From positions 47,501 to 111,500 of the forward strand of contig JAIVFJ010000136.1 in assembly GCA_025765615.1 (NCBI GenBank): 64,000 nucleotides of DNA, written 5' to 3'. A program made the position numbers and the translations under genes. The notes below the pieces were generated by a model that did no database searches, was not told the origin of the DNA, and saw only the letters and a program-made list of their open reading frames with translations. Shown here piece after piece: positions 2,677 to 64,000 of the stretch. How positions within the stretch are numbered: the first letter of the stretch is position 1; every line of letters begins with the position of its first letter. The stretch comes from Zopfochytrium polystomum (lineage: Eukaryota > Chytridiomycota > Chytridiomycetes > Chytridiales > Chytridiaceae).

Positions 2677-4413
2677 ATGTCGAGCGATTCCTTGACCAAG
2701 CTATTCAATAAGAGCGTCACGCTGGACCAGATCAAGGCCTGGCTCAAGGACGGGAACTCGGTCAACCAGGCCAACGATAAGGGATACACCTTGCTTCACT
2801 GGGCCGGCCAGATCGGAAGTGTGGAAATTGCGACCTACGTGCTCGACCACGGATGCAACATCGACACCCTCTGCAAAGCGGACTTTACAGCCGTGCAGAC
2901 AGCATCTTCTTGTGGCAGCTATGACGTTGTCAAGCTGTTGACCCAGCGCGGAGCCAACGTCAACATTGGCACCCCGAAAGCGATCAACGTGGCGATTTCA
3001 AATGGCCACCTGAACATCGTCCAGTGTCTCCTCGAACACGGGGCCGACATCAACCAGGTCGGATCGAACGGGGACATGCCTCTCAACTACGCCGCGATGG
3101 AAGGATACGAAGAAATCGGGCTGTTCCTCATCGAGAAGGGCGCAAACGTGAACGCGGCCAACGAGCTGGGCTTTACCCCGCTGATGTACGCCTCGGCGCT
3201 CTGCCCAGGCCTGGTTGGCCCGCTGCTCGAAAAGGGCGCGGACGCGCTCAAGGCCAACAATAACGGCGTCACGGCGCTGCACCTGGCTGCGCAGGCGGGG
3301 AAGGTCGACGCCGTGCGGCAGCTGCTCCGTGCCGGGGCCGCGGTCAACGCTGGCGACAAGGAGAACTACACGCCGCTGATCCTCGCGACGGAGAAGGGCC
3401 ACCTAGACGTGATCAAGGAGCTCGTCGAGCACGGCGCGGACGTCGACGTCCAGGACACAGCCGAGTACGGGCAGCGCACGGCGCTGGAAGCGGCGGCGGT
3501 GCGCGGGCTCACGGAGGTCGCGGCGTACCTGATGGAGCACGGCGCGGACGTCAACAGGCGCGACCGGATCGGCGGCACGGCGCTGCACGACGCGGCGCGG
3601 ACGGGGCGGGTGGCGATCGTCAAGGCGCTGCTGGAGCGCAAGGCGGACACGTCGTTCGCGACGGTCGCCGGCGCCACGCCGTTCCTGGAAGCGTGCGAGG
3701 GCGGGCACCGCGAGGTGGCGGAGCTGCTCTTGGGGAAACCGGGCGGCGACGCGGTCAAGACGGCGGACGAGAACGGCCGCACGGCGCTGCACGTGGCGGC
3801 CGGGAAGGGCCACCCGGAGCTGGTGAGCTGGCTGCTGGGACTGCCCGGGGTCAGCGTCGGCGCGCTGACGGGGGGCGAGTCCAAGGGCACGCCGCTGCAC
3901 GTCGCTGCGGCGGCGGGGCACGCGGAGGTCGTGCGGGTGCTGCTGCGGGCCGGGGCGGACAAGGACGCCAAGGCCGAGGGCGGGGCGACGCCGCTGCACC
4001 TGGCGGCGCAGCAGGGCGCGGCGGAAGTGGTGGTGTTGCTTGTGGAGCACGGGGCGGACGTTGCGGCGGGGGCCGGGGAGAACGGGACGACGGCGCTGCA
4101 CCGGGCGGCGGAGGGGGGATACGTGGAGGTTGTGGCGGCGCTGGTGGAGAAGGGCAAGGCGGAGGTGGACGCGCGCGACCTCCGCGGCGAGACGGCGCTG
4201 CACCGTGCGGCGCGGGGCAACCACGCGGGCGTCATGGACTGGCTGATGGCGCACGGGGCGGAGAAGGACCCGGTCAACGCCAAGGAGCAGACGCCGTTCC
4301 ACTACGCGATCGCGTTTGAGCAGATGGACGCCATCGCGGTGCTCATGAAGCACGGCGCGACGGGCAACGGCCTGTCTGCCGCCGTCTCGTTTGTCGATGC
4401 GGATGAGGAGTAG
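2677..4413 (+). CDS. Ankyrin-repeat protein, tandem copy 1
   Basis: An intronless 578-residue protein made almost wholly of ankyrin repeats, about 16 units of roughly 33 residues with the pattern G-x-TPLHLAA-x2-GH-x2-VV-x2-LL-x2-GAD. A short non-repeat N-terminus (residues 1-27) carries the motif KSVTLDQIK, shared with the downstream copy. There is no signal peptide, membrane span, kinase or SOCS-type partner domain, so it is presumably a cytosolic protein-binding scaffold. The ATG follows a short purine/C context (cccaaaatgtcg) and is the first in frame. Base composition shifts along the gene: the last kilobase is very GC-rich in third positions, which also opens long antisense frames. It is a paralogue of the gene at 5013-6803, formed by tandem duplication. 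Binding partner unknown. Confidence 0.9.
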   Translation: MSSDSLTKLFNKSVTLDQIKAWLKDGNSVNQANDKGYTLLHWAGQIGSVEIATYVLDHGCNIDTLCKADFTAVQTASSCGSYDVVKLLTQRGANVNIGTPKAINVAISNGHLNIVQCLLEHGADINQVGSNGDMPLNYAAMEGYEEIGLFLIEKGANVNAANELGFTPLMYASALCPGLVGPLLEKGADALKANNNGVTALHLAAQAGKVDAVRQLLRAGAAVNAGDKENYTPLILATEKGHLDVIKELVEHGADVDVQDTAEYGQRTALEAAAVRGLTEVAAYLMEHGADVNRRDRIGGTALHDAARTGRVAIVKALLERKADTSFATVAGATPFLEACEGGHREVAELLLGKPGGDAVKTADENGRTALHVAAGKGHPELVSWLLGLPGVSVGALTGGESKGTPLHVAAAAGHAEVVRVLLRAGADKDAKAEGGATPLHLAAQQGAAEVVVLLVEHGADVAAGAGENGTTALHRAAEGGYVEVVAALVEKGKAEVDARDLRGETALHRAARGNHAGVMDWLMAHGAEKDPVNAKEQTPFHYAIAFEQMDAIAVLMKHGATGNGLSAAVSFVDADEE

Positions 4414-5012: not shown

Positions 5013-6803
5013 ATGTCGTCGGACGATTCGAAAAACGACTCCTTTTCCAAGCTGTTTGAAAAAAGCGTCACGCTGGACCAGATCAAGGTGTGGCTCAACG
5101 AGGAGGAGGCGGCCAACTCGGTCAACCAGGCCGACGAAAAGGGTTACACTTTGCTTCACTGGGCCGCCCAGATCGACAGCTTCGAGATTGCTGCGTTTTT
5201 GCTCGACCGGGGATGCAGCATAGACGCCCTCGCCAAGGCGGACTTTACAGCCCTGCAGACGGCAACTTCGCTCGGCCATTTTGACGTGGTCAAGTTGCTC
5301 GTGAAGCGCGGAGCCAACGTCCACATTGGCGTCCCGCAAGCGATCAACCTGGCGGCTTCGAGGGGCCGGCTGGACATTCTCCAGTTTCTCGTCGAACACG
5401 GGGCCGACGTCGACCAGGTCGGACCGAACGGGGACACCCCCCTCAACTACGCCGCGATGGAAGGACACGAAGAAATCGCGCTGTACCTCGTCGAGAAGGG
5501 CGCAAACGTGAACGCGGCCAACGAGCTGGGCTTCACCCCGCTGATGTACGCCGCGGCGCTCGCGCCGGGCGTCGTCGGCCCGCTGCTCGAAAAGGGCGCG
5601 GCCGCGTCGACAGCAAACAACGACGGCGTCACGGCTTTGCACGTCGCCGCGCAAGCCGGCAAAGTCGACGCCGTGCGGCAGCTGCTCCGCGCCGGCGCCG
5701 CCGTCGACGCGCGCAACAGCGAAAGCTACACGCCGCTGATCCTCGCGGCGCAAAAAGGCCACCTCGAAGTCATCGAGGCGCTGCTCGAGCACGGCGCGGA
5801 CGTGAACGCAAAGGACACGGCCGAGCACGGGCACCGCACCGCGCTGCAGGCCGCCGCGGTGCGCGGGCACCTCGCCGTCGTGCTGTTCCTGCTGGACCAC
5901 GGCGCCGCCGTCGACGCGCGCGACGCGATCGGCGCCACCGCGCTCCACGACGCCGCGCGCACCGGCCGCGCCGAGATCGCGCGCGAGCTGCTGCTGCGCG
6001 GCGCGGACCCGGCGCTGCGGTGCGTCGACGGTGCCACGCCGTTCCTGCGCGCCTGCGAGAACGGCCACGTGGACGTCGCCGCCGCGTTGCTCCTGGGCAA
6101 CCCCGGCGGCGACGACCCGGCAAAGGAGGCGGACGAGAACGGCCGCACGGCGGTGCACCTCGCCGCGCGGGGCGGCCACGTCGAGGTCGTGGAGTGGCTG
6201 CTGGATCTGCCGGGCGCCAGCGCGCGGGGGGCAGCGAGCGCCGCGAGCGCGAACGGGGAGACGCCTCTGCACGCCGCCGCTGCGGGCGGGCACGCGGACG
6301 TCGTGCGGGTGCTGCTGCATGCCCCCGGCGGGGGCGGCGGCGGTGTGGACGTGGACGCGCGTGACGCGAACGGGGCGACGCCGCTGCACTACGCGACGGG
6401 GGCCGGGGCGACGGAGGTGGTGATTCTTCTCGTGGGGCACGGCGCGGACCTTTCGGCGTGCGCGGGTGAGCGCGGGACGACGCCGCTGCACAACGCGGCG
6501 GCGGCGGGCCACGTTGCGGCGGTGGCGGCGCTGGTCGAAAAGGGCAAGGCGGACGTGGACGCTCGCGACCTCGACGGCGAGACGGCGCTGCACTATGCGG
6601 CGGAGGGCAACCACGCGTCCGTCATGGACTGGCTGATGGCGCACGGCGCCGCAAAGGACCCGGTCAGCGCCAAGGGCCGCACACCGTTCCACCACGCGAT
6701 CGCATTGGAGCACATGGACGCCATCGCGGTGCTCATGAAGCACGGCGCCACCGGAAACGGCCTGTCTGCTGCCGTCAAGTTTGTGCCCAACGAGAAGCTA
6801 TGA
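5013..6803 (+). CDS. Ankyrin-repeat protein, tandem copy 2
   Basis: An intronless 596-residue ankyrin-repeat protein, the tandem paralogue of the gene at 2677-4413. The two share the N-terminal KSVTLDQIK block, long near-identical stretches such as NYAAMEGHEEIALYLVEKGA, and the C-terminal block DAIAVLMKHGATGNGLSAAV. Copy 2 has a few short extra segments, including a glycine run near residue 445 (PGGGGGGVDVD), explaining its 18 additional residues. Composition is strongly GC-biased in the second half, as in copy 1. No other domain is visible. A scaffold or binding role is likely, but nothing in the sequence names the partner. The start codon is the first in-frame ATG after an upstream stop. 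Confidence 0.9.
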   Translation: MSSDDSKNDSFSKLFEKSVTLDQIKVWLNEEEAANSVNQADEKGYTLLHWAAQIDSFEIAAFLLDRGCSIDALAKADFTALQTATSLGHFDVVKLLVKRGANVHIGVPQAINLAASRGRLDILQFLVEHGADVDQVGPNGDTPLNYAAMEGHEEIALYLVEKGANVNAANELGFTPLMYAAALAPGVVGPLLEKGAAASTANNDGVTALHVAAQAGKVDAVRQLLRAGAAVDARNSESYTPLILAAQKGHLEVIEALLEHGADVNAKDTAEHGHRTALQAAAVRGHLAVVLFLLDHGAAVDARDAIGATALHDAARTGRAEIARELLLRGADPALRCVDGATPFLRACENGHVDVAAALLLGNPGGDDPAKEADENGRTAVHLAARGGHVEVVEWLLDLPGASARGAASAASANGETPLHAAAAGGHADVVRVLLHAPGGGGGGVDVDARDANGATPLHYATGAGATEVVILLVGHGADLSACAGERGTTPLHNAAAAGHVAAVAALVEKGKADVDARDLDGETALHYAAEGNHASVMDWLMAHGAAKDPVSAKGRTPFHHAIALEHMDAIAVLMKHGATGNGLSAAVKFVPNEKL

Positions 6804-34776: not shown

Positions 34777-37700
34777 ATGGACAACTACACCGGCGTGGAG
34801 GGAGATATCAGGCTCGATGAGTATGGAAACGCGACCCTGGACACAGTGGTGGATGCGGTCATCCAGGAGCGGAACTACAACATTCTCCTGTGGACTCCGT
34901 TCTTGGCAATCCCGTTGTGTATTATCACGGCCCGTTTGATCAAGTACATATACAGAATCTACTTGAACAAGCGGTATGGCTACGGTAAGACAGACCCCGC
35001 CAGGGTTTTGGAAATACCCAAATCGGGCAAAGCTTAACCAAGACCTCCTCGTTGAAAGGTGACGATCTTTTCGACGATCCTCTCGCTCAACTTGGGTTGG
35101 CGCAATTGGGCCTCACCATCCACCGAGGGTACGACGATTTAAATGACGTTCGCAAAATTAGGCAAGAGCAGAAAAAGCTGGAACGCCGGCTGGCCAAGAA
35201 GGAAAATCAAAAGCTGAGCCGCTCGCGCCAGAACTCGAATGCTGCTCCCGTCGGGCGGGGCGAAAGTATTGTAGGGCCAGGAACAAATTTGCATCCGCTC
35301 TTTATCGCAGAAAACTATCTGCGCTCACTCAGAGAGGCAACTAGGCGAACCTGGATTGACGTTCTCAGCCCAGACGCAGTCCGTCGGTGGTTCGTAACGT
35401 CGCGATTCGGCCGGCTCTGGATGATTTTCCAGGTCCTTGCGACCGCCGTGGCCATTTTCAACTACGTTTTTTTGACGTACGCCATCCAGCGAGATGACCG
35501 AAAGCACATCAAGATCCTCGACGTTGTTCTCGCTTTCATCTTTTTGATGGATTACGCCATTTCCATGTACATTGCCGAAGACCGCCTCGCATTCTACTTC
35601 AACCCGTCCTCTCTGGTGGACCTTGTCTCGATTGTTCCACCCTTTATCTACGTTTTTGTGAGCGAGTCGTCACAGTTCGTTTGGTTTTTGGGATTGCTGC
35701 GGATTCTGCGAGCCTCGCGAATTTTGAGAACGTACAGGCTCCTCTCCTTTTCGGCCACAGAAGAGAAACGCGAGTTGACTATAGCTGCGCTGAGTTTCTG
35801 CAATTTTGTGTTCCTGGCGGCCAGTATCATCAATGCTTTGGAAACCATAAACGCCAGTCGAAAGTCCGACCCTTCTTTAACCCATTGGCATGACAGCCTT
35901 TACTACATTATGGTCACTTTTAGGTTTGAAACGTTAACTTTTGGGCAGGCCGTGGTGCAAAACTTCTGATTTTCTTTCCGCAGTACCATCGGTTTCGGAG
36001 ATCTTACACCATCGTCCGTCCCGTCGAGAGTAGTCGTTATGCTTTTAATCGTGGTCGTCATCATTTACGTACCAATCCAAACAACTCGAATCACGGAGAT
36101 TTTCAACTCAACGTCGTCGTTTCAGAGAGCCAAGTTCTCGGCCTCAAAGCGGCACGGTCACGTCATCCTTTCCGGTCGAATCGACTACACAACAATTGTC
36201 AACTTCTGCCGCGAATTCTTCATTTCGGACGCAGCATCCCATGTCGTCGTTTTGTCGCCTCTTGAGCCGACGTTGGAGACGCGACGACTGCTTAGACATC
36301 CGTACTATCGAAATCGACTGTTTTACCTTTCCGGCACGGCGCTCTCCTCCCAAGACTTGCGACGCGCCGCAGCCCAGTACGCAACCAGCATGTTTTTGGT
36401 AAACGTCCCCACCGACGACACGTCCAACCTGGAGGAAGACGCTCAAATCCGTGCGACCCGGACAGCGGATGCGGAGCTGCTGATGCAGTCTCTCGTCGCA
36501 AAAAAGCATTGCCCGGGCCTGCCCGTCGTTGCTCAGGTGCAGGACACGCGGTCCGAAGAGCTCGCGCAGGCGTGCGGTTGCGACCGCGTGCTGTGCATCG
36601 ACAAGACGAAGATGGCGATCGTCGCTCGCGACTGTTTGGTTCCCGGATTTCTCGCCATGATCGTGAACTTGGTCCTGACGTACCGCAGCGACCGAGCGGT
36701 CGCTGCGGTAGTGGGCGGCGACGCGTGGCGGCGAGAGTACGGGCTCGGCGCGGCGAACCAGATCTTCTCGATGCGCGTCCCGCCCGGTCTGGCGAACTTG
36801 CATTGGCGCGAGGTCGTGGACGCGGCGTACAGGAGCTTCAACGTTACTTTTTTTGCCGTCATGTCCGGAGGGGGCCGATTCGCGGGGCGGCTTCGGCTGA
36901 ATCCGGAAGGTGAAGAGCGCGTCCGAGACGACGACGTTGTCTTCTTTCTCTCCAGCGGAGGCAGTGAGGTGGTTGTGCGACTGGCGATTCAATTTAGGGA
37001 GCCCATCCCGAAAGAGCAGCTCCAGTTGCTTGAGTTGGATGCCGAGTTGGATGCGAAGCTTCCACCGGTGCCGTCTTCGGTGAACGCCAGCGTTGAAAGC
37101 GGACTGGCGTTGAGAGACAGCGCAGACACGGCACAGGAGCAGTTGGACAAGCCCCTTTGGTCCAATCACATTATTCTTTGTGGATATACTACCGCTCGAG
37201 GCGTGCAGCAGTTCCTTTCCAGCCTTCGAGCCGGCGAGGAGAACGACGGGACGAAAAACCAGATTGTGTGTCTCATGGACGAGGTTCCGGACGAGTCGCA
37301 AATTTCCGCGCAATCTGACGGAGTGTGGGCGGAGCTTGTCAAGGACAGCAGCATTGCATTCGTGCGTGGAACGCCGCTGAAAAAAACTAGTTTAAGCAAC
37401 GTGGGGATAAAGACGTGCAGGAGGATTGTCGTTTTCTCCACACCGGCTAGTTCCACCGATTCGGGCGGTTCGCAGACTCTACCCGATGCGAATTCGATAT
37501 TTATAATCAAAATGATCCAAGAGGTATCTGCATTCAATTCCTTGCCGCCTTCTTAATGATACTGACGCGATGGTTTCGTAGGAGTGGCCTCTAACAAATT
37601 TCCTCGTTGAGCTCGTCAATGGAGCAAATGTCAAGTACTTCTCAACAACACGAGAGGACGCAGACTGGGACACGGTTAACTTGCGCATGCTGTCGATTCT

Positions 37701-56885: not shown

Positions 56886-57176
56886 TGTTAGGCGGAACTG
56901 ACTGGTTAGCAGCAAGAGGCACAAGATGGACCTGAACCTATTGTGACGGTCAGTTATTGTTCTCATGATGCCATGGGAGAGTGAGCCACCACCAATGCAG
57001 ACCTGGGCGCTGGCTTGCACTGTTGATACTCTGAGTATTAAGTGGAACGGAAACCTGGTGTCAACAGTTTTCCTCCTCCTCTGCTCAAGCAGATAATAAA
57101 GCAGAGGTTTTTACCCTGTGCTGGCCACACTTGCCTAGCAACTATAACAGTGTGCATATCATCATCATGTATCAAT
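56886..57176. repeat. Dispersed repeat segment B, copy 2
   Basis: Nearly identical to 30872-31163, differing by a few substitutions and small gaps (for example CATCATCATGT versus CATCATGT near the end). Here it is not preceded by segment A; the left neighbour is unrelated sequence. Confidence 0.8.
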
Positions 57177-57629
57177 GTGAGACTGTGCTCTCTAACTCCT
57201 CACCTAGGGCTATAGGTGGAAACTAGAGCATGGACCTAAATACCAATCCTGACTAATGAAAAGGGGCAAAAGGGGGGTGTCTAGGGGCACTAGACAGGAA
57301 AGTGTATTTGGAGTCTTAAAAAGCCCAAGAAAAACACAAATAAATCTCTAACACAAAAGAGGGGTTTCTCACACCAAAGCATGAAACAGACACAATCACA
57401 AAAGAAAGCATAATCCTCTGGTGCAAGACACAGAAGGGTTTCATCTGGGGCACAAGGCCAAAGCCAAGTTAGACCAGAGGCAGAACCGACTTGATCGGTA
57501 AGACCGACTGAATCGGTAAGGGGAGTGACAAGCCACTACAACCCATCAAAAGAAACAACAAAAGAAATAAACAACAAGTCAAACCCTGAGTTGGAGGGGG
57601 TTGGAGAGACAAAGGGCAGACACAAGGAA

Positions 57630-57761
57630 CAGTTAGTGTGCAGAGGTGCCTGTTGAACCAAATCAGAACTGTTTTCCACTTAACAGAACCAGACACAACT
57701 TGTCTCACTCCAAGGAGAGTGTTCCAACTCAATCCAAGGAAGAGGGTGCAACCAGGGTGGG
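57630..57761. repeat. Dispersed repeat segment A, copy 2
   Basis: Over 90 percent identical by eye to 30740-30871. It lies 453 bp to the right of segment B, whereas in the other locus A directly precedes B. The sequence continues past the point where copy 1 switches to segment B. Confidence 0.8.
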
Positions 57762-58177
57762 AGACAGTGGGACTCTTCTTGCTCCATCCTACCAGGAGAC
57801 AGACCTCTGCCTCACCAGGCCAGAGAGAATAACCTGTCTTAGAAGCAAGGAAGGTCAATACCCACTCCCACACACAAGGAAGACACCAAAGACAACCACA
57901 GGTATTAGCATGAAAGGAAGAGGGTCTGAACCCAGTGAACCAGGCCCACCAAAGGCCAAAGGAACCATCACCGGGGATAGGGAGGAATACCAGAGAGACC
58001 ATACCACCACATAATACCTGACCAGCCAACTCATTCATATCACCTTGAGAGACCTGGATTTGAAGCTGATGTATTGACAGGAACCGGCGAGGCACTACCA
58101 CAGTTTTACCCTCCCACCGTCCATCATCAAGTAGCTCCTACCCCAGACCAGCCTAAACAGTATGTGCAGAATGGTGA

Positions 58178-58247
58178 GGTGCACTGGGACTTGAACCCAG
58201 CACACTGCCATAAATGGCCAAGAGAACCAATTCTCCTGTCACACACC
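58178..58247 (-). repeat. tRNA-like sequence (SINE or tRNA relic)
   Basis: Read on minus, a 70-nt segment with a 7-bp acceptor-like pair (GGTGTGT / GTGCACC, with wobble), a D-arm-like CAGG...CTTG, and a perfect T-arm CTGGG TTCAAGT CCCAG. The anticodon region is too short (GCCAT/ATGGC with a 2-nt loop), so it is not a working tRNA. Confidence 0.5.
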
Positions 58248-58959
58248 AGGGGACTGCCACCCCCAGCTCATACACACAGTCAGAGAAGGAATAAGGGCAG
58301 GCAAGAAGACTTCAGGATACAGGTTCTAAGGGGCAACAAGAATGGGGGGTGGGCTGCTTAAATAGGAGAGGGTTGGAATCAGCAGGGTGAAGGAAGAAGG
58401 AAGGGAAAAGAGGGGAAAACATATACAAAAGAACAAAACAATAAATAAAACAACAAAGAAGAGAGAGGAGGAGTGAGTCACCAAACAATGGGGCTGAGCC
58501 ATCAAACAAGGAAGACAGCTCAGAAAATCATGGAGCATTTCTTGGCATCAGCTGCCAAGAAAGATGGAGGAGATGGAGAGAGCTGGTTGGTGCAAAGAGG
58601 AAGACAGTCACTCACAGCCACAAAAGAAAAGAGAGACACACACAGAGACAATAAACAAACAAATAAATAAAAGATAAAACAGTAAAAACAGGAAAAACAG
58701 GATAAACTACTAATTGAAAAAATAAGTAAAAATCATCAATAAAGAAAGGAGAAAAAACCCTATGATCTCATACCCTTTCATGAGGCCTTTCATCATGGTA
58801 GCTTATGTAGCAGCTCTGTGTTAGCTCTGTGTACACCTGGACTCTGTACTTCTACCCACTTAAGCACATCATCCTAATCCATTTCCAAAAGTGAGGGGGC
58901 AAGGCTTAGTCATTGTGCAGAACTTAGCATTTCTGCATCATTCAGTCAGTGACTGCCAG

Positions 58960-59028
58960 CATGTCTCGAACTTAGCACCTTTCCCATTGAAGGGAGCGCT
59001 CTACACCACTGAGCTAGAGGGCCTCTGG
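58960..59028 (-). repeat. tRNA-like sequence (SINE or tRNA relic)
   Basis: Read on minus it starts GGCCCTCTAGCTCAGTGGTGTAGAGCGC, a very good A box with a GCTC/GAGC D-stem, followed by an anticodon-like stem and a degenerate B box AGTTCGAGA. The T-stem is broken. It lies about 290 bp beyond the presumed 3' LTR start of the gypsy element. Confidence 0.5.
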
Positions 59029-59384
59029 CCAGTAGTGCAGAGCGGCCTGAGCCATTCGGCCTGCAACTTAGTGCGTAATAATAACATGAATAATATACAT
59101 GGCCGCAGGCTAAGAGACAGTCCAAATCTCAGTGGTTCGGCTTGCAGGGACAATAATAACCCATGAAAATAATAAGAAATGGGGTCCAGCCGTGTTACGT
59201 CACTTTCGTGAAACGTTGTTTGGTCAAGTCAAATTGATAATCCTCACAAGTTATCAGTTAAAAAAGCGAGGTATACTCTTTTTATTTGAGGTCGCAGGCT
59301 CAACAGCCTGTCGTCCTCACAGTACCTCTTTTTTATTCTCGCAGCCATAGATGCGACAAATTAAAATAAGGTGGGTCCAAGGCG

Positions 59385-60083
59385 TCACTTGGATTTTTGC
59401 AGTCGGAGGCTACGTCGCGTTCCGGTTGCAGGTGGTGGGTTTACTGGGATGAGCTTCTTTGTGGTATTCATTGGTTTTACAGGAGTTTCTGCACGTGTTG
59501 CAGGACTCGTGTTTTTGGGACCTGGAGCGTTGGAGCGCTTGGAGGGTCGGTTTGCAATGAATTCTGTGCGTCGCTGGAACTCATCTGGATCGTTCTCTTT
59601 TACAAGAGCCCAGTAGTCTTGAATAGCTTTGGGGTGTAAGTCTTCTTCAAGTTGGTTCCAGTCATGCTTGGAAGAGTATCCTAACCATTTGGTTAGATAC
59701 ATATATTTTTCGCCATCGAATGTGTGAGATTTAATGCGCTCGATCTCGTATTCGATATCGGCAGGGTCTTCTTCATCATCTTCAGGCTCAAAGTATCGTC
59801 TGACAAATTCAGGGTGGATGCCAGGAGCCATCGTGGTTTTTGAAGAGGGTTGGCGGTAGCGTTTCTTAGCGGTTTGCCATTTTTCAAGTTCTTCGTCATA
59901 TGTTGCACCAGCGAGGTCTGCGGCTTCTTCTGCGAAGTCAGCAGGAGCTCGCTCAGTGTAAGGTCGCAGTCGTGAAACATGCACAGTTCTGGTCACAATC
60001 TGATTTCCAGGGAATGCTTCAACAATTGTGTATTGCGCTTCAGAGTCTTTGCCAGGTGATTGCAATGACTCGTACAGGGCCAA
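59385..60083 (-). CDS. Gypsy integrase end with chromodomain
   Basis: Open frame of 232 codons. The first about 45 residues complete the integrase barrel (QYTIVEAFPGNQIVTRTVHVSRLRPY, the HVSRLKPY-type ending). Residues 112-160 (about 59604-59750) form a chromodomain: YEIERIKSHTFDGEKYMYL and TKWLGYSSKHDWNQLEEDL, with Y112, W133 and W142 at the aromatic positions. Chromodomains at this place mark chromoviruses and direct integration towards methylated histone. The tail is Pro/Arg/Lys-rich (TRRSLRLQKSK). No start codon is expected; it is the end of the polyprotein. Confidence 0.85.
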   Translation of the reverse strand: MALYESLQSPGKDSEAQYTIVEAFPGNQIVTRTVHVSRLRPYTERAPADFAEEAADLAGATYDEELEKWQTAKKRYRQPSSKTTMAPGIHPEFVRRYFEPEDDEEDPADIEYEIERIKSHTFDGEKYMYLTKWLGYSSKHDWNQLEEDLHPKAIQDYWALVKENDPDEFQRRTEFIANRPSKRSNAPGPKNTSPATRAETPVKPMNTTKKLIPVNPPPATGTRRSLRLQKSK

Positions 60084-60412: not shown

Positions 60413-61942
60413 TCAAGTGAAGGCGGCTGTGAACAGGTTTAGGGTAATTTGGTGTCCTGTTTTGTTGGCAAAAAGGTACACAAGTTCTCCGTTTCTTGAA
60501 AGAACAGTGAGCCCGCGTTTGAATTCAGTCACAGCAACTGATTTCAGCAAGTGTTCAGGACAAATGAGGTGTCGAGGCCCGTACACATAACAGGCAGAAC
60601 GATCAGTAAAAACCTGCGATGCGGCCAGAGACGTTGTCATTCCACCAGGATTCAGTGAGTTTCGCAGAAAAGTGGGGAATTTCAAGTGTTCAGGTCGGCG
60701 TCCTGGAATTGCAGGTGGACGCTCATGAAAGATGTAAAGAACATCAATGGAGTATCTGGAGATAAACTCGCTTAGCACTTCGTGAACAGGGTACTCTGTG
60801 GGGAAGGGCCAGAGTTTCATCGGCAAATACTGTCGGAAGGTGAGCCTAGGATTTGTTGTTCGCATGAACACAATCCTAAGTTGCGGTGAAGAAGGCAGGG
60901 GCTCGCTTGAAAAGAGAGGGAGTGCTTTCTTTGAGTACACTGCTGTCGTTGTCAGTGTTTCAGGTGTGTTAACTACAGGAGGTTTAAATTCAAAGCTCTG
61001 AGCAAGAAACACATTGTCACCCAGCAGCAATGTTGTACTATCAGGTTCGGCATCTTCTTCTTCAGGAAGAAGTGCTTTTTCCTCTGTGCTGAGAGGATCA
61101 TCTCTGTCAACTCCAGAGAACATATCAATGGGGAGTCGGCAGTCGCGTCCATGCATCAGGAAAAACGGAGTTTCTCCAGTCAGTGGGTGGACGTGAGTTC
61201 TGTACGCAAAAAGAGCATACGGAAGCACAGTGGGCCAGTCGTCATGGGATGACTGATCAATGAAAGACCGTAAGGTTGCCTTCAGTGTTTTGATGTAACG
61301 TTCTACAGCACCGTTGCTCGGCCAGCGTGGTGATGAGAAGGTCTTCTTGGTTCCGAGTGCTTTACAGAGAGCAGCAAACAATTCACTGGAAAAGGGCTGT
61401 CCTCTGTCGGAGTGAAGGAACACAGGGATTCCGTGTCTGCAAAACACTTGTTCTACAAGGGCTCGTGCAGCAGTTTCTGCGGTAATGTCTGTGACAGGGA
61501 CTGCTTCAACCCAGCGGGTGAAATAATCAATCACAACCATAATGTACTGGTAACCTTCAGTGGTCTTTTTGAAGGGGCCAGCAAAGTCAACAGAAATTCG
61601 TTCCCAGGGATACATTCCAATGGGGACAGGATGCAGAACTCCGGAACGGGAGGGCGCAGGTTTACTCTTTTGGCAAGTTTCACAACTTGCAATGTGGTTG
61701 CGGAGGTCTCTACCCATAGTGGGCCAGTAGAAACGTTCAGCAAGGGTGTCAAACACTTTCCGAGCACCAAGGTGTCCAGAAAGGAGGTCGTCGTGGACAA
61801 GTTTAAGAACATTTCTCCGCAAGTTGTCAGGAATGCATATGGCAAGTCTTAGTGGGGTTCTCTTCATCATGAAAGAGTATGAATCTCTCACGGCGTGGAG
61901 AACTCCGTGTCGAATCACCATCATGGCTGCTCGTGTAGTCAT
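60413..61942 (-). CDS. Gypsy integrase with ~210 unassigned C-terminal residues
   Basis: 509-codon frame; the same frame is open upstream to about 62085. The zinc domain has H50, H57, C87 and C90 (HDDLLSGH...CETC). The catalytic core has D119 (ISVDFAGPF), D179 (HSDRGQPFS) and E214 (SNGAVERYIKTLK), a D-x59-D-x35-E spacing as expected. GETPFFLMHGRDCRLP ends the core at about residue 272. The remaining residues, from about 300 to 509, do not look like the usual integrase linker: they include LRIVFMRTTNPRLTFRQYLP, YSIDVLYIFHERPP, DRSACYVYGPRHLICPEHLL and NGELVYLFANKTGHQI and match no domain I know. In-frame stops at 60413 and 60359 separate this from the next integrase segment, which is in the same frame. 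Confidence 0.85.
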   Translation of the reverse strand: MTTRAAMMVIRHGVLHAVRDSYSFMMKRTPLRLAICIPDNLRRNVLKLVHDDLLSGHLGARKVFDTLAERFYWPTMGRDLRNHIASCETCQKSKPAPSRSGVLHPVPIGMYPWERISVDFAGPFKKTTEGYQYIMVVIDYFTRWVEAVPVTDITAETAARALVEQVFCRHGIPVFLHSDRGQPFSSELFAALCKALGTKKTFSSPRWPSNGAVERYIKTLKATLRSFIDQSSHDDWPTVLPYALFAYRTHVHPLTGETPFFLMHGRDCRLPIDMFSGVDRDDPLSTEEKALLPEEEDAEPDSTTLLLGDNVFLAQSFEFKPPVVNTPETLTTTAVYSKKALPLFSSEPLPSSPQLRIVFMRTTNPRLTFRQYLPMKLWPFPTEYPVHEVLSEFISRYSIDVLYIFHERPPAIPGRRPEHLKFPTFLRNSLNPGGMTTSLAASQVFTDRSACYVYGPRHLICPEHLLKSVAVTEFKRGLTVLSRNGELVYLFANKTGHQITLNLFTAAFT

Positions 61943-62048: not shown

Positions 62049-63989
62049 TCAAGAACTTGTACTTCTGAGTGGAAACTCTCTAGGAAGGGCTTCTGGTGTT
62101 ACGACCAACTCAGGCGTAACAGGAGCTGTGTCAAGTGGTGAGACTGCTGTTTCAGTTTCTTGCTCTGTTGGCACAGCAGGGAGGAGGTCTCCAAGGTTTG
62201 ATAGAAACTCAATGCAGTAGTGGTCGCTGACAGGAAGTCCATCAGCAGCAGGAATTTCATTGTGAACTTGAACACTGTACTGTGAAGGGTCAATGTCTGC
62301 ACTCACAAGGAAATAATCAATTCTCAAGAGAGGAACCCATTCACTCGAAGAGACAGATCTCATGGTCCAGGTCAGTCCATGAGCAGAAGGGAAACTCTTT
62401 CGGAAGGCATCAGTATAGCCAGATGCTAAGAATCTGTCGAGCCATTGTCTTTCTTCAGCCAAAAGGCCAGGAAACGTAGCGTTGTACTTTTTCAGTGTAA
62501 AACGCAAGGAATGATCAACATCAAGGTCAGTGTGTGCGATGTTCAGATCTCCAGCAACAATGACAGTAAAGCCTTGTAGTTGGAGCGCAGAGCAGTTTCG
62601 TGTGATGTCTTCAAGGAAAATCATCTTGTAAGGATGGCGGGTGCCAGTTTCATCAGCAAACGAACTTGGAGCATAAACGTTCACAATTGCAAATGGCCCC
62701 ACAAGAAGAACAGCAACACGTCCCTCTCGGGTGTGTTGGGGGTCTCCTAAATAGGTGAATTCTTTGCCGTTCAACTCAGAACGGTAGAATATTGCAACTC
62801 CACTTATCCCGGTTCGGGGATCGCAAAGCAAAAGCTTCCATCCCTTGATCTGGGAAAGTTGATCAACAAGTTTCTGGCGCTTAGCACCAAGACGTGTTTC
62901 TTGCAAACAAACAATACAAGAGGATTGTGAGTTGAGGTAAGACTCAAATCGTTTGGCAGGGTCAGTTTCTTGAGCAAAAGTGACACCGGATTTGTGAGCA
63001 ACCTTAAGCCAGGAGTTCAGTCCGTTAATATTCCATGAGGAAATACTGAAGGACGGTTTCCACTTAGGTCGTTCAAAAACTTCTGCTTTCGCAGGTTCGC
63101 GTCGCCGTATGAGATGATGGCGGAGGAGATCCTTTCGAACCTCTGGGTCAAAGAGAGATATTTCTCGAGGAGGGCCTTCATTGTCTGAATCCAACGCATT
63201 GGTTTCAGATTCAAAGTCCTCATCAGTAGCAGTGGCTACCTCTTTTTTCGCTTTGTCCTTACTTGTTACAGTAAAGATCGCGTTTTCAACAGGGGACATT
63301 TCTGTCTGTGTTGCAGCATCTTCAGAGAACAGGAAGCGCTTCTCTTTCCTTGCAGTGGGTCCAAGGAAAACACGGGAGAGGGCGTCAGCAACGATGTTCT
63401 GTTTGCCTGAGACATGGACAAGCTCGATGTCGTAGTCAGAAAGTGCATAGGCCCATCGTCCAAAACGGCCAGTCAGAGGTCCTTTCTTGAACAGTTGAAG
63501 GAGAGGAGCGTGATCAGTCTCAATAATCACAGAGCGGTTGAAGATATATCGTTCAAAGGTGTCGACAGCCCATACAACTGCGAGTCCTTCGCGATCGTGA
63601 GTCCAATAACGCGTTTCCGCATCATTTAAAACTCTCGAAGCGAATCCAACAGGTTTCCGTTTCTCGCGGTTGTGGGGGTCATCAGGGTCAACTATGTAGA
63701 GTGCAGCGCCAAGGGCATAACCAGAGGCATCACATTCTATTAATAGCTTGTCATTAGCAGTTGGGGTCACGAGTTTGATGTCGCGTTGAAGCTCTTTTCT
63801 CAAGAGGTTAAAGGCATCTTCCTGTTGAGATCCCCACAGAAATGGGTTCTTTCCAGAAAGGAAGGTTATATAGCGGTTTTGCTTTATCAGAGAAAGCCTG
63901 AATGAAGCGCTTGAAGTAGTTTGCAAAACCAAGGAACTGCTGTAGCTGGTTGAGCGTTTTGGGCATTGGGTACTGGTCCAACTGAACAA
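62049..63989 (-). CDS. Gypsy pol part: RNase H followed by AP-endonuclease (EEP) domain
   Basis: 646-codon open frame. Residues 45-206 are RNase H, with D87 (IECDASG), E134 (HDREGLAVV), D159 (ETDHAPL) and D202 (VADALSR) at the four metal positions. A disordered linker covers 207-315. Residues 316-598 (about 62196-63044) are an exonuclease III/APE1-type nuclease: SWNINGL (N320, N322), CLQETR (E364), VNVYAPSS (Y439), VAGDLNIAHTDLD (D481, N483), GLTWTMRS (W542), LLRIDYFLVS (D558) and LPVSDHYCIEF (D589, H590). These match the metal-binding and catalytic residues of the family; NIN rather than NVD in the first motif is as in bacterial ExoIII. LRIDYF and the hydrophobic W-region favour the AP-endonuclease branch over LINE endonucleases. 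The C-terminal 45 residues are a Pro/Glu/Thr linker running into the integrase, which is in another frame. Confidence 0.9.
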   Translation of the reverse strand: MFSWTSTQCPKRSTSYSSSLVLQTTSSASFRLSLIKQNRYITFLSGKNPFLWGSQQEDAFNLLRKELQRDIKLVTPTANDKLLIECDASGYALGAALYIVDPDDPHNREKRKPVGFASRVLNDAETRYWTHDREGLAVVWAVDTFERYIFNRSVIIETDHAPLLQLFKKGPLTGRFGRWAYALSDYDIELVHVSGKQNIVADALSRVFLGPTARKEKRFLFSEDAATQTEMSPVENAIFTVTSKDKAKKEVATATDEDFESETNALDSDNEGPPREISLFDPEVRKDLLRHHLIRRREPAKAEVFERPKWKPSFSISSWNINGLNSWLKVAHKSGVTFAQETDPAKRFESYLNSQSSCIVCLQETRLGAKRQKLVDQLSQIKGWKLLLCDPRTGISGVAIFYRSELNGKEFTYLGDPQHTREGRVAVLLVGPFAIVNVYAPSSFADETGTRHPYKMIFLEDITRNCSALQLQGFTVIVAGDLNIAHTDLDVDHSLRFTLKKYNATFPGLLAEERQWLDRFLASGYTDAFRKSFPSAHGLTWTMRSVSSSEWVPLLRIDYFLVSADIDPSQYSVQVHNEIPAADGLPVSDHYCIEFLSNLGDLLPAVPTEQETETAVSPLDTAPVTPELVVTPEALPREFPLRSTSS

Positions 63990-64000
63990 TCTTGGTTGGA

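Follow-up and report, generated by a model that had tools for sequence, protein, structure and literature searches.

Why should the Pol region of a Ty3/gypsy retrotransposon of the chytrid Zopfochytrium polystomum contain an exonuclease III (ExoIII)/apurinic-apyrimidinic (AP) endonuclease domain, and is this domain part of the element at all? The question is raised by a stretch of 64,000 nt on contig 136 (JAIVFJ010000136.1 of assembly GCA_025765615.1, positions 47,501 to 111,500 of the forward strand; hereafter the window, to whose own numbering all coordinates without contig or locus refer). The nuclease, called EEP domain in the following, recurs in the genome in one frame with its Pol neighbours. 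Judged from its sequence, it represents a captured ExoIII/AP endonuclease of a chromovirus-like element and probably, by a modest preponderance, processes the element cDNA before integration.

In the window copy, a minus-strand open frame of 649 aa (62049..63998) contains a Ty3/gypsy RNase H (63432..63836, minus strand, residues 55-189; Pfam RT_RNaseH E 3.1e-27, RT_RNaseH_2 2.3e-23) and, in the same register, the EEP domain (62196..63044, minus strand, 283 aa), which matches Exo_endo_phos with E 3.5e-19 over profile positions 2-225 of 225. An earlier reading of the window from its letters (the sequence-only reading) had described a 646-codon frame (62049-63989, minus strand) with a gypsy RNase H and a full ExoIII/APE1-type nuclease, and Pfam agrees. 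RNase H and nuclease are indeed in register, but the initial ~40 codons, which had been counted as part of a frame starting from RNase H, are out-of-register reverse transcriptase (RT) sequence; RT similarity extends from 63996 to 63862 and RNase H similarity from 63863 on, in different frames. Similarly, the integrase was correctly said to follow the nuclease, as the next open reading frame (ORF; 60413-61942, minus strand) contains Integrase_H2C2 and rve (zinc finger and core, 61325..61834, minus strand; PF17921 2.6e-21, PF00665 3.6e-14). However, since the window copy is frame-broken, its integrase and the chromodomain ORF that forms the C-terminal end of the integrase (59385..60083, minus strand) are situated in other frames, and RT, RNase H-EEP, integrase, and chromodomain are spread over several frames. 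The gag-like and protease/RT ORFs lie past the window edge and match a zinc knuckle and RVT_1 in Pfam; the protease is indicated by an aspartic DSG motif seen by eye in the translation only.

The catalytic positions of the nuclease are complete. N320, E364, Y439, D481, N483, D558, D589, and H590 of the frame correspond to domain residues 5, 49, 124, 166, 168, 243, 274, and 275 (offset 315). All eight, as named in the sequence-only reading, are each invariant in 9/9 aligned element sequences as well as in 10/10 rows of a second alignment composed of the window copy, four other copies of the families A and B, a metagenomic protein (P0001), three copies of the families F2 and F3, and the APE1 of the host. 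We take this set (Asn, Glu, Tyr, Asp, Asn, Asp, Asp-His) to be the catalytic positions of the ExoIII/APE1 (Xth) family. The predicted EEP fold is closest to ExoIII/APE enzymes, and structural alignments gave ~26-30% identity to Mth212, M. mazei ExoIII, B. subtilis ExoIII, and human APE1, from which the element nuclease differs in being built into a retroelement polyprotein. Due to the complete catalytic set, the nuclease is likely active.

A search of the 80-Mb genome with the EEP domain gave 102 matches, merged at 3 kb to 68 sites, 37 of which span at least 700 bp. Since a few rows belong to the F2/F3 lineage, these 68 sites are not the count of one family. For 30 A/B-type sites inspected in the DNA (28 sites from 30 search loci, together with L008 and L051), the best matches show the EEP domain flanked by an upstream RNase H and a downstream integrase, all on one strand, in 18 cases; at 8 further sites one neighbour only was present within the fetched flank and at 4 neither. 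RNase H, EEP, and integrase share one open frame at nine sites, i.e., L008, L010, L015-L019, L035, and L038. In case of L052 on contig 40, the longest case read, RT to chromodomain are encoded in a single 2429-aa stretch inside a 3741-aa open frame, with RT at 674-832, RNase H at 896-1028, EEP at 1215-1480, H2C2 at 1640-1698, rve at 1715-1810, and Chromo at 2324-2372 (Pfam). On contig 49 (54763-83051), three B-type LTR (long terminal repeat) matches occur ~13.96 kb apart with an EEP match per interval, which looks like two tandem elements sharing an LTR.

The conservation of the nuclease across copies, a check that had been suggested along with the sequence-only reading, was assessed by the Nei-Gojobori method; purifying selection acts on the nuclease. 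When L009 of the window subfamily is compared with L015, the ratio of nonsynonymous to synonymous substitution rates (dN/dS) of the EEP domain is 0.12 at a dS of 1.23, and the RNase H and integrase of this pair give 0.09 and 0.07, respectively. Within the L015 subfamily, 10/10 pairs among five copies, which are non-independent, gave EEP values of 0.04-0.16 (Fisher p 7.8e-3 to 2.4e-12). Pairs with saturated dS or almost no change (L009-L010 for EEP and RNase H, L038-L008) were set aside, as were the integrase of L009 and L010 (0.65, very few changes) and comparisons with an RNase H spoilt by frameshifts (L009 or L015 with L023, 0.28 and 0.53; L035 with L036, RNase H 1.22, integrase 0.65). Over the 30 sites, 220/223 catalytic cells match the family reference versus 6239/7779 (80%) of the other cells, related copies being non-independent, and the three changed catalytic cells belong to the degenerate sites L028, L031, and L032.

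Taken alone, the window copy with broken frames on both sides of the domain might suggest a chance nested insertion, a decaying passenger, or an assembly join mimicking a module, and 'complex transposons' of fungi, to which multiple insertions have added further domains, are described (PMC3248453; this and the other papers cited are drawn on in excerpt). The nine single-frame sites, the purifying selection, the nearly unchanged catalytic cells, and the independent metagenomic protein speak against this explanation, which is hardly credible. Nested insertion and assembly artefact were rejected on the grounds of the single-frame, collinear copies and P0001. Other copies were found, and insertion junctions at the domain edge, which the sequence-only reading had held to be decisive, were not; with the LTRs and duplications described below, the claim of a polyprotein module is upheld.

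The element ends were examined in two copies. The whole window copy extends past the window and covers contig 136:104676-122504 (~17.8 kb). Its 2.14-kb 3' LTR (57176..59321, minus strand) is 99.8% identical to the partner 5' LTR (contig 136:120362-122504), with 1 mismatch and 3 gap openings over 2146 columns, and partial further copies of it occur elsewhere in the genome (40 scored matches). The target-site duplication TCAA (57172..57175) is found as a direct repeat beyond the 5' LTR (contig 136:122505-122508), and a purine-rich tract abuts the 3' LTR (59322..59341, minus strand), where the minus strand ends AAAAAAGAGGTAC and element B has AAAAAGAGGTAC. The element on contig 40 (L052) is ~14.7 kb long, with 908-nt LTRs that are 100% identical and a CGGT duplication. 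Because the LTRs of the window copy are near-identical although its Pol frames are broken, this copy either is young and moved while defective, or some of the indels are sequencing errors. The order RT - RNase H - (EEP) - H2C2 - rve on L052 and the LTRs with a short duplication in both copies are those of a Ty3/gypsy element, and a chromodomain is located at the integrase C-terminus (PF00385; E 4.4e-6 in the window, 8.1e-8 in L052). The 4-bp duplications and the full integrase argue for insertion by integrase.

The EEP domain also occurs in a second gypsy lineage of the same genome that is distant from A/B, situated before RT in F2 and after RNase H in F3. Members of F2 (contigs 55, 143, and 79) encode EEP - RT - RNase H - H2C2 in one 1416-aa ORF, preceded by an ORF with an aspartyl-protease match just under the Pfam cut-off; the two copies read have direct repeats of at least 660 nt with one gap and a spacing of 9339 nt. 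For F3 (contigs 104 and 20) the order is RNase H - EEP - H2C2/integrase, and the EEP dN/dS is 0.07 at a dS of 2.0, which is near saturation. The RTs of F2 and F3 share 37% identity with one another and each 25-29% with the six other rows compared. Near one LTR of F2 elements, a 68-nt unit is present three times (L040:8973-9223, L041:770-1020).

Outside this genome, the 3585-aa JGI (Joint Genome Institute) metagenomic protein P0001 contains RT, RNase H, EEP, H2C2, and rve in the same order, with no Chromo match at E 0.01 (Pfam). Its EEP domain is 31% identical to that of the window and has kept the eight catalytic residues; its RT-RNase H part is 58-60% identical to A and B. In the protein database, P0001 was the sole relative among 721 candidates for the element B region, no relative was obtained among 2323 candidates for the F2 region, and five EEP-domain proteins were obtained among 1754 candidates for the A region. 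Of these, P0005, P0006, P0007, and P0009 showed no gypsy domains on scan, and P0008 was judged by its listed Pfam numbers only. In P0007 and P0009 (clusters of 12 and 38 members), an ExoIII-like EEP is fused N-terminally to a group II intron-type RT/maturase (RVT_N, RVT_1, GIIM).

Many gypsies of the genome do not have the domain, as a survey of the best 150 of 483 RNase H candidates and the best 150 of 777 H2C2 candidates shows. The scored matches of both kinds are dominated by an abundant, near-identical gypsy family. Of these, 111 RNase H and 126 H2C2 places were processed by script. In 90 cases, RNase H is followed by H2C2 on the same strand, and 89/90 of the gaps measure 297-299 bp, which is too short for the domain, so that this ordinary family lacks an EEP between RNase H and H2C2. 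The remaining gap, of 2014 bp, extends across a neighbouring copy.

As the sequence-only reading had proposed, the element EEPs were compared in a tree with the host APE1 and with endonucleases of long interspersed nuclear elements (LINEs), and they fall together and apart from both. In this tree of 22 rows, the nine element EEPs form one side of a branch supported by 94/95, just under the star of the tree program, with the host APE1 outside, and a 100/100 branch separates three LINE endonucleases of the same genome from the remaining 19 rows. Accordingly, a LINE endonuclease spliced into a gypsy was rejected due to the latter branch. The gene for the host APE1 lies on contig 103 and contains introns (zebrafish APE match 1.1e-52); a recent copy of this APE1 was rejected due to its 23% identity to the window domain and its exclusion from the 94/95 branch.

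In LINE retrotransposons, the target is nicked by an enzyme of the EEP superfamily, and non-LTR ORFs with EEP and RT are present in this genome. Target nicking coded by the gypsy itself, alone or with integrase, had been among the functions suggested. This idea is disfavoured by the LTRs and 4-bp duplications of the two copies examined, by the H2C2 and rve integrase of the family, and by the grouping of the domain with ExoIII/APE, and we regard it as very improbable. With the AP-like endonucleases of LINEs, the element nuclease shares the EEP superfamily and its occurrence in a retroelement, but it differs in its separate branch and in the polyprotein type.

The closest neighbours of the element EEP clade in the tree are some prokaryotic ExoIII, a placement that is weakly supported (66/98 and 57/66), and the P0001 branch is long. 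A close bacterial source was not found by tblastn of the window domain against plasmids (79 records) and phages (11 records), where all matches are below 60% identity and those listed (12 and 8 rows) range from 28 to 32%. Pattern searches gave 3 matches and 0 relatives in viral contigs, and 10 matches and 0 relatives in prokaryote genome contigs (alignment A1), the latter with a single very specific pattern and hence as weak evidence. In an RT tree of 8 rows, whose EEP-less gypsies are one from the same genome and Ty3, the closest solved RT relative, the EEP-bearing rows constitute one side of an unrooted branch (96/94). The A/B RTs share 37-41% identity with Ty3, 36-39% with the ordinary gypsy, and 25-29% with F2/F3. 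Since they are nearer to Ty3 than to F2/F3, yet the EEPs form one clade, this clade would reflect either an ancient capture followed by loss from most gypsies or a module moved between gypsy lineages.

What might the nuclease do in these elements? Because it is made together with RT and RNase H, an AP endonuclease would be best placed for the cDNA. We presume that it is made within the polyprotein, released from it by cleavage, and taken into the virus-like particle along with RT. In the particle, it would nick 5' to abasic sites in the cDNA and clean blocked 3' ends, leaving a 3'-OH from which RT could resynthesise before integrase inserts the product. Such an element-borne base-excision-repair step would parallel the dUTPases of other retroelements in place and purpose. 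In HIV-1 (human immunodeficiency virus 1) particles, uracil repair by UNG2 and the AP-endonuclease activity of RT is described (PMC2427051). Matches to the uracil-DNA glycosylase (UDG) family at three places and one dUTPase match in the host genome suggest that a base-excision pathway seems to exist around the element.

Several points weigh against cDNA repair. ExoIII-type enzymes have several activities, and for this reason the sequence leaves the substrate unfixed. The Trp beside the RLDY of APE1 is part of the AP-site pocket; it is kept in P0001 and replaced in families A, B, F2, and F3, i.e., in 4/5 element families compared. Furthermore, the EEP domain diverges faster than RT (A versus B, 72% identity for RT-RNase H with copy L015 and 37% for EEP with the window copy), which could indicate a relaxed or shifted role, and the abundant ordinary gypsy family does without the nuclease. 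In HIV-1 particles, APE1 was reported to help degrade edited cDNA, while others could not detect it there (PMC2427051); given that report, a nuclease of this kind could be detrimental as well as beneficial.

An active nuclease might also process cDNA ends or primers instead of repairing damage, by 3'-end trimming or by removal of tRNA or polypurine primer remnants before integration. ExoIII enzymes act as 3'-5' exonucleases and 3'-phosphatases, and some of them also have RNase H activity; in families A, B, and F3, the location of the domain after RNase H and before integrase would suit this task. However, the EEP of F2 precedes RT and thus the position is not essential, the ordinary family lacks the domain, and the elements keep an RNase H of their own, so that end processing appears rather unlikely. 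A module of counter-defence would act against a host deaminase or glycosylase attack that leaves abasic sites or uracil in the element DNA. The UDG-family matches of the host are in agreement with it, and the faster divergence of EEP fits an arms race in a non-specific manner, but a dN/dS far below 1 does not, and we consider this role improbable.

Between integrase core and chromodomain, a segment without Pfam family (60416..60952, minus strand) is 29% identical to its element B counterpart (L052:5732-6511, plus strand). By eye, it was also recognised at approximately residues 3055-3290 of P0001; an AF2 (AlphaFold2) model from two sequences reached a pLDDT (predicted local distance difference test score) of 46. 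Elsewhere in the window, a host ORF with domains of a BK-type calcium-activated potassium channel (36039-37556, plus strand) and two adjacent ankyrin-repeat ORFs (2677-4413 and 5013-6803, plus strand) were observed.

With fungal Ty3/gypsy chromoviruses, the elements share RT, RNase H, the H2C2/rve integrase, chromodomain, LTRs, purine-rich tract, short duplications, and, by eye, the protease motif; they differ in the EEP domain between RNase H and integrase, in the unassigned segment before the chromodomain, and in their length (~14.7 and ~17.8 kb). An ExoIII/AP endonuclease as a conserved Ty3/gypsy Pol module was not encountered in a full-text literature search that is thin on subscription papers and probably does not cover Repbase reports. 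The statement of the sequence-only reading that it knew of no described lineage with this layout should be qualified, as Exo_endo_phos is noted in the animal Kuafuorterviruses, where a 2024 paper calls it 'only present sporadically' and possibly host-derived (PMC11673190). These are likewise LTR reverse-transcribing elements; in contrast to their sporadic domain, the one described here is recurrent, conserved, and part of a gypsy Pol, a comparison that leaves aside domain position, catalytic state, and selection in the Kuafuorterviruses (PMC11673190).

The nearest parallel in kind is given by the dUTPases, which in retroviruses occupy several locations, including one between RT and integrase (PMC2427051), and three Pol places among the gypsies of one fungus (PMC2864245). 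They too are captured DNA-hygiene enzymes in Pol with lineage-dependent positions (PMC2427051, PMC2864245), whereas an AP endonuclease/ExoIII would act after base loss and not on the dUTP pool. Other gypsies have also taken up a further enzyme, i.e., a DNA methyltransferase (DNMT) in Klebsormidium (PMC5890265), an archaeal-type RNase H in oomycetes (PMC5348765), and an N6-methyladenosine (m6A) demethylase in an extra ORF in orchids (PMC9289625), none of which is a repair endonuclease according to these excerpts.

For annotation it follows that an EEP domain beside RT does not by itself indicate a LINE. Retroelement cDNA is made inside a particle that may offer little host repair, and the known answers are to let less uracil in by means of a dUTPase or to borrow host repair enzymes (PMC2427051). 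Considering two deeply separate lineages and a metagenomic relative with one EEP clade and two Pol positions, it is a tentative, though quite possible, generalisation that the ExoIII/AP endonuclease is a stable, exchangeable gypsy Pol module. It would follow that some LTR elements supply the particle with a base-excision-repair endonuclease of their own, by which abasic or blocked cDNA is mended ahead of integration. With an element coding for the next enzyme of the pathway, one could test if retrotransposition is limited by cDNA damage and if retroelements swap repair enzymes as modules.
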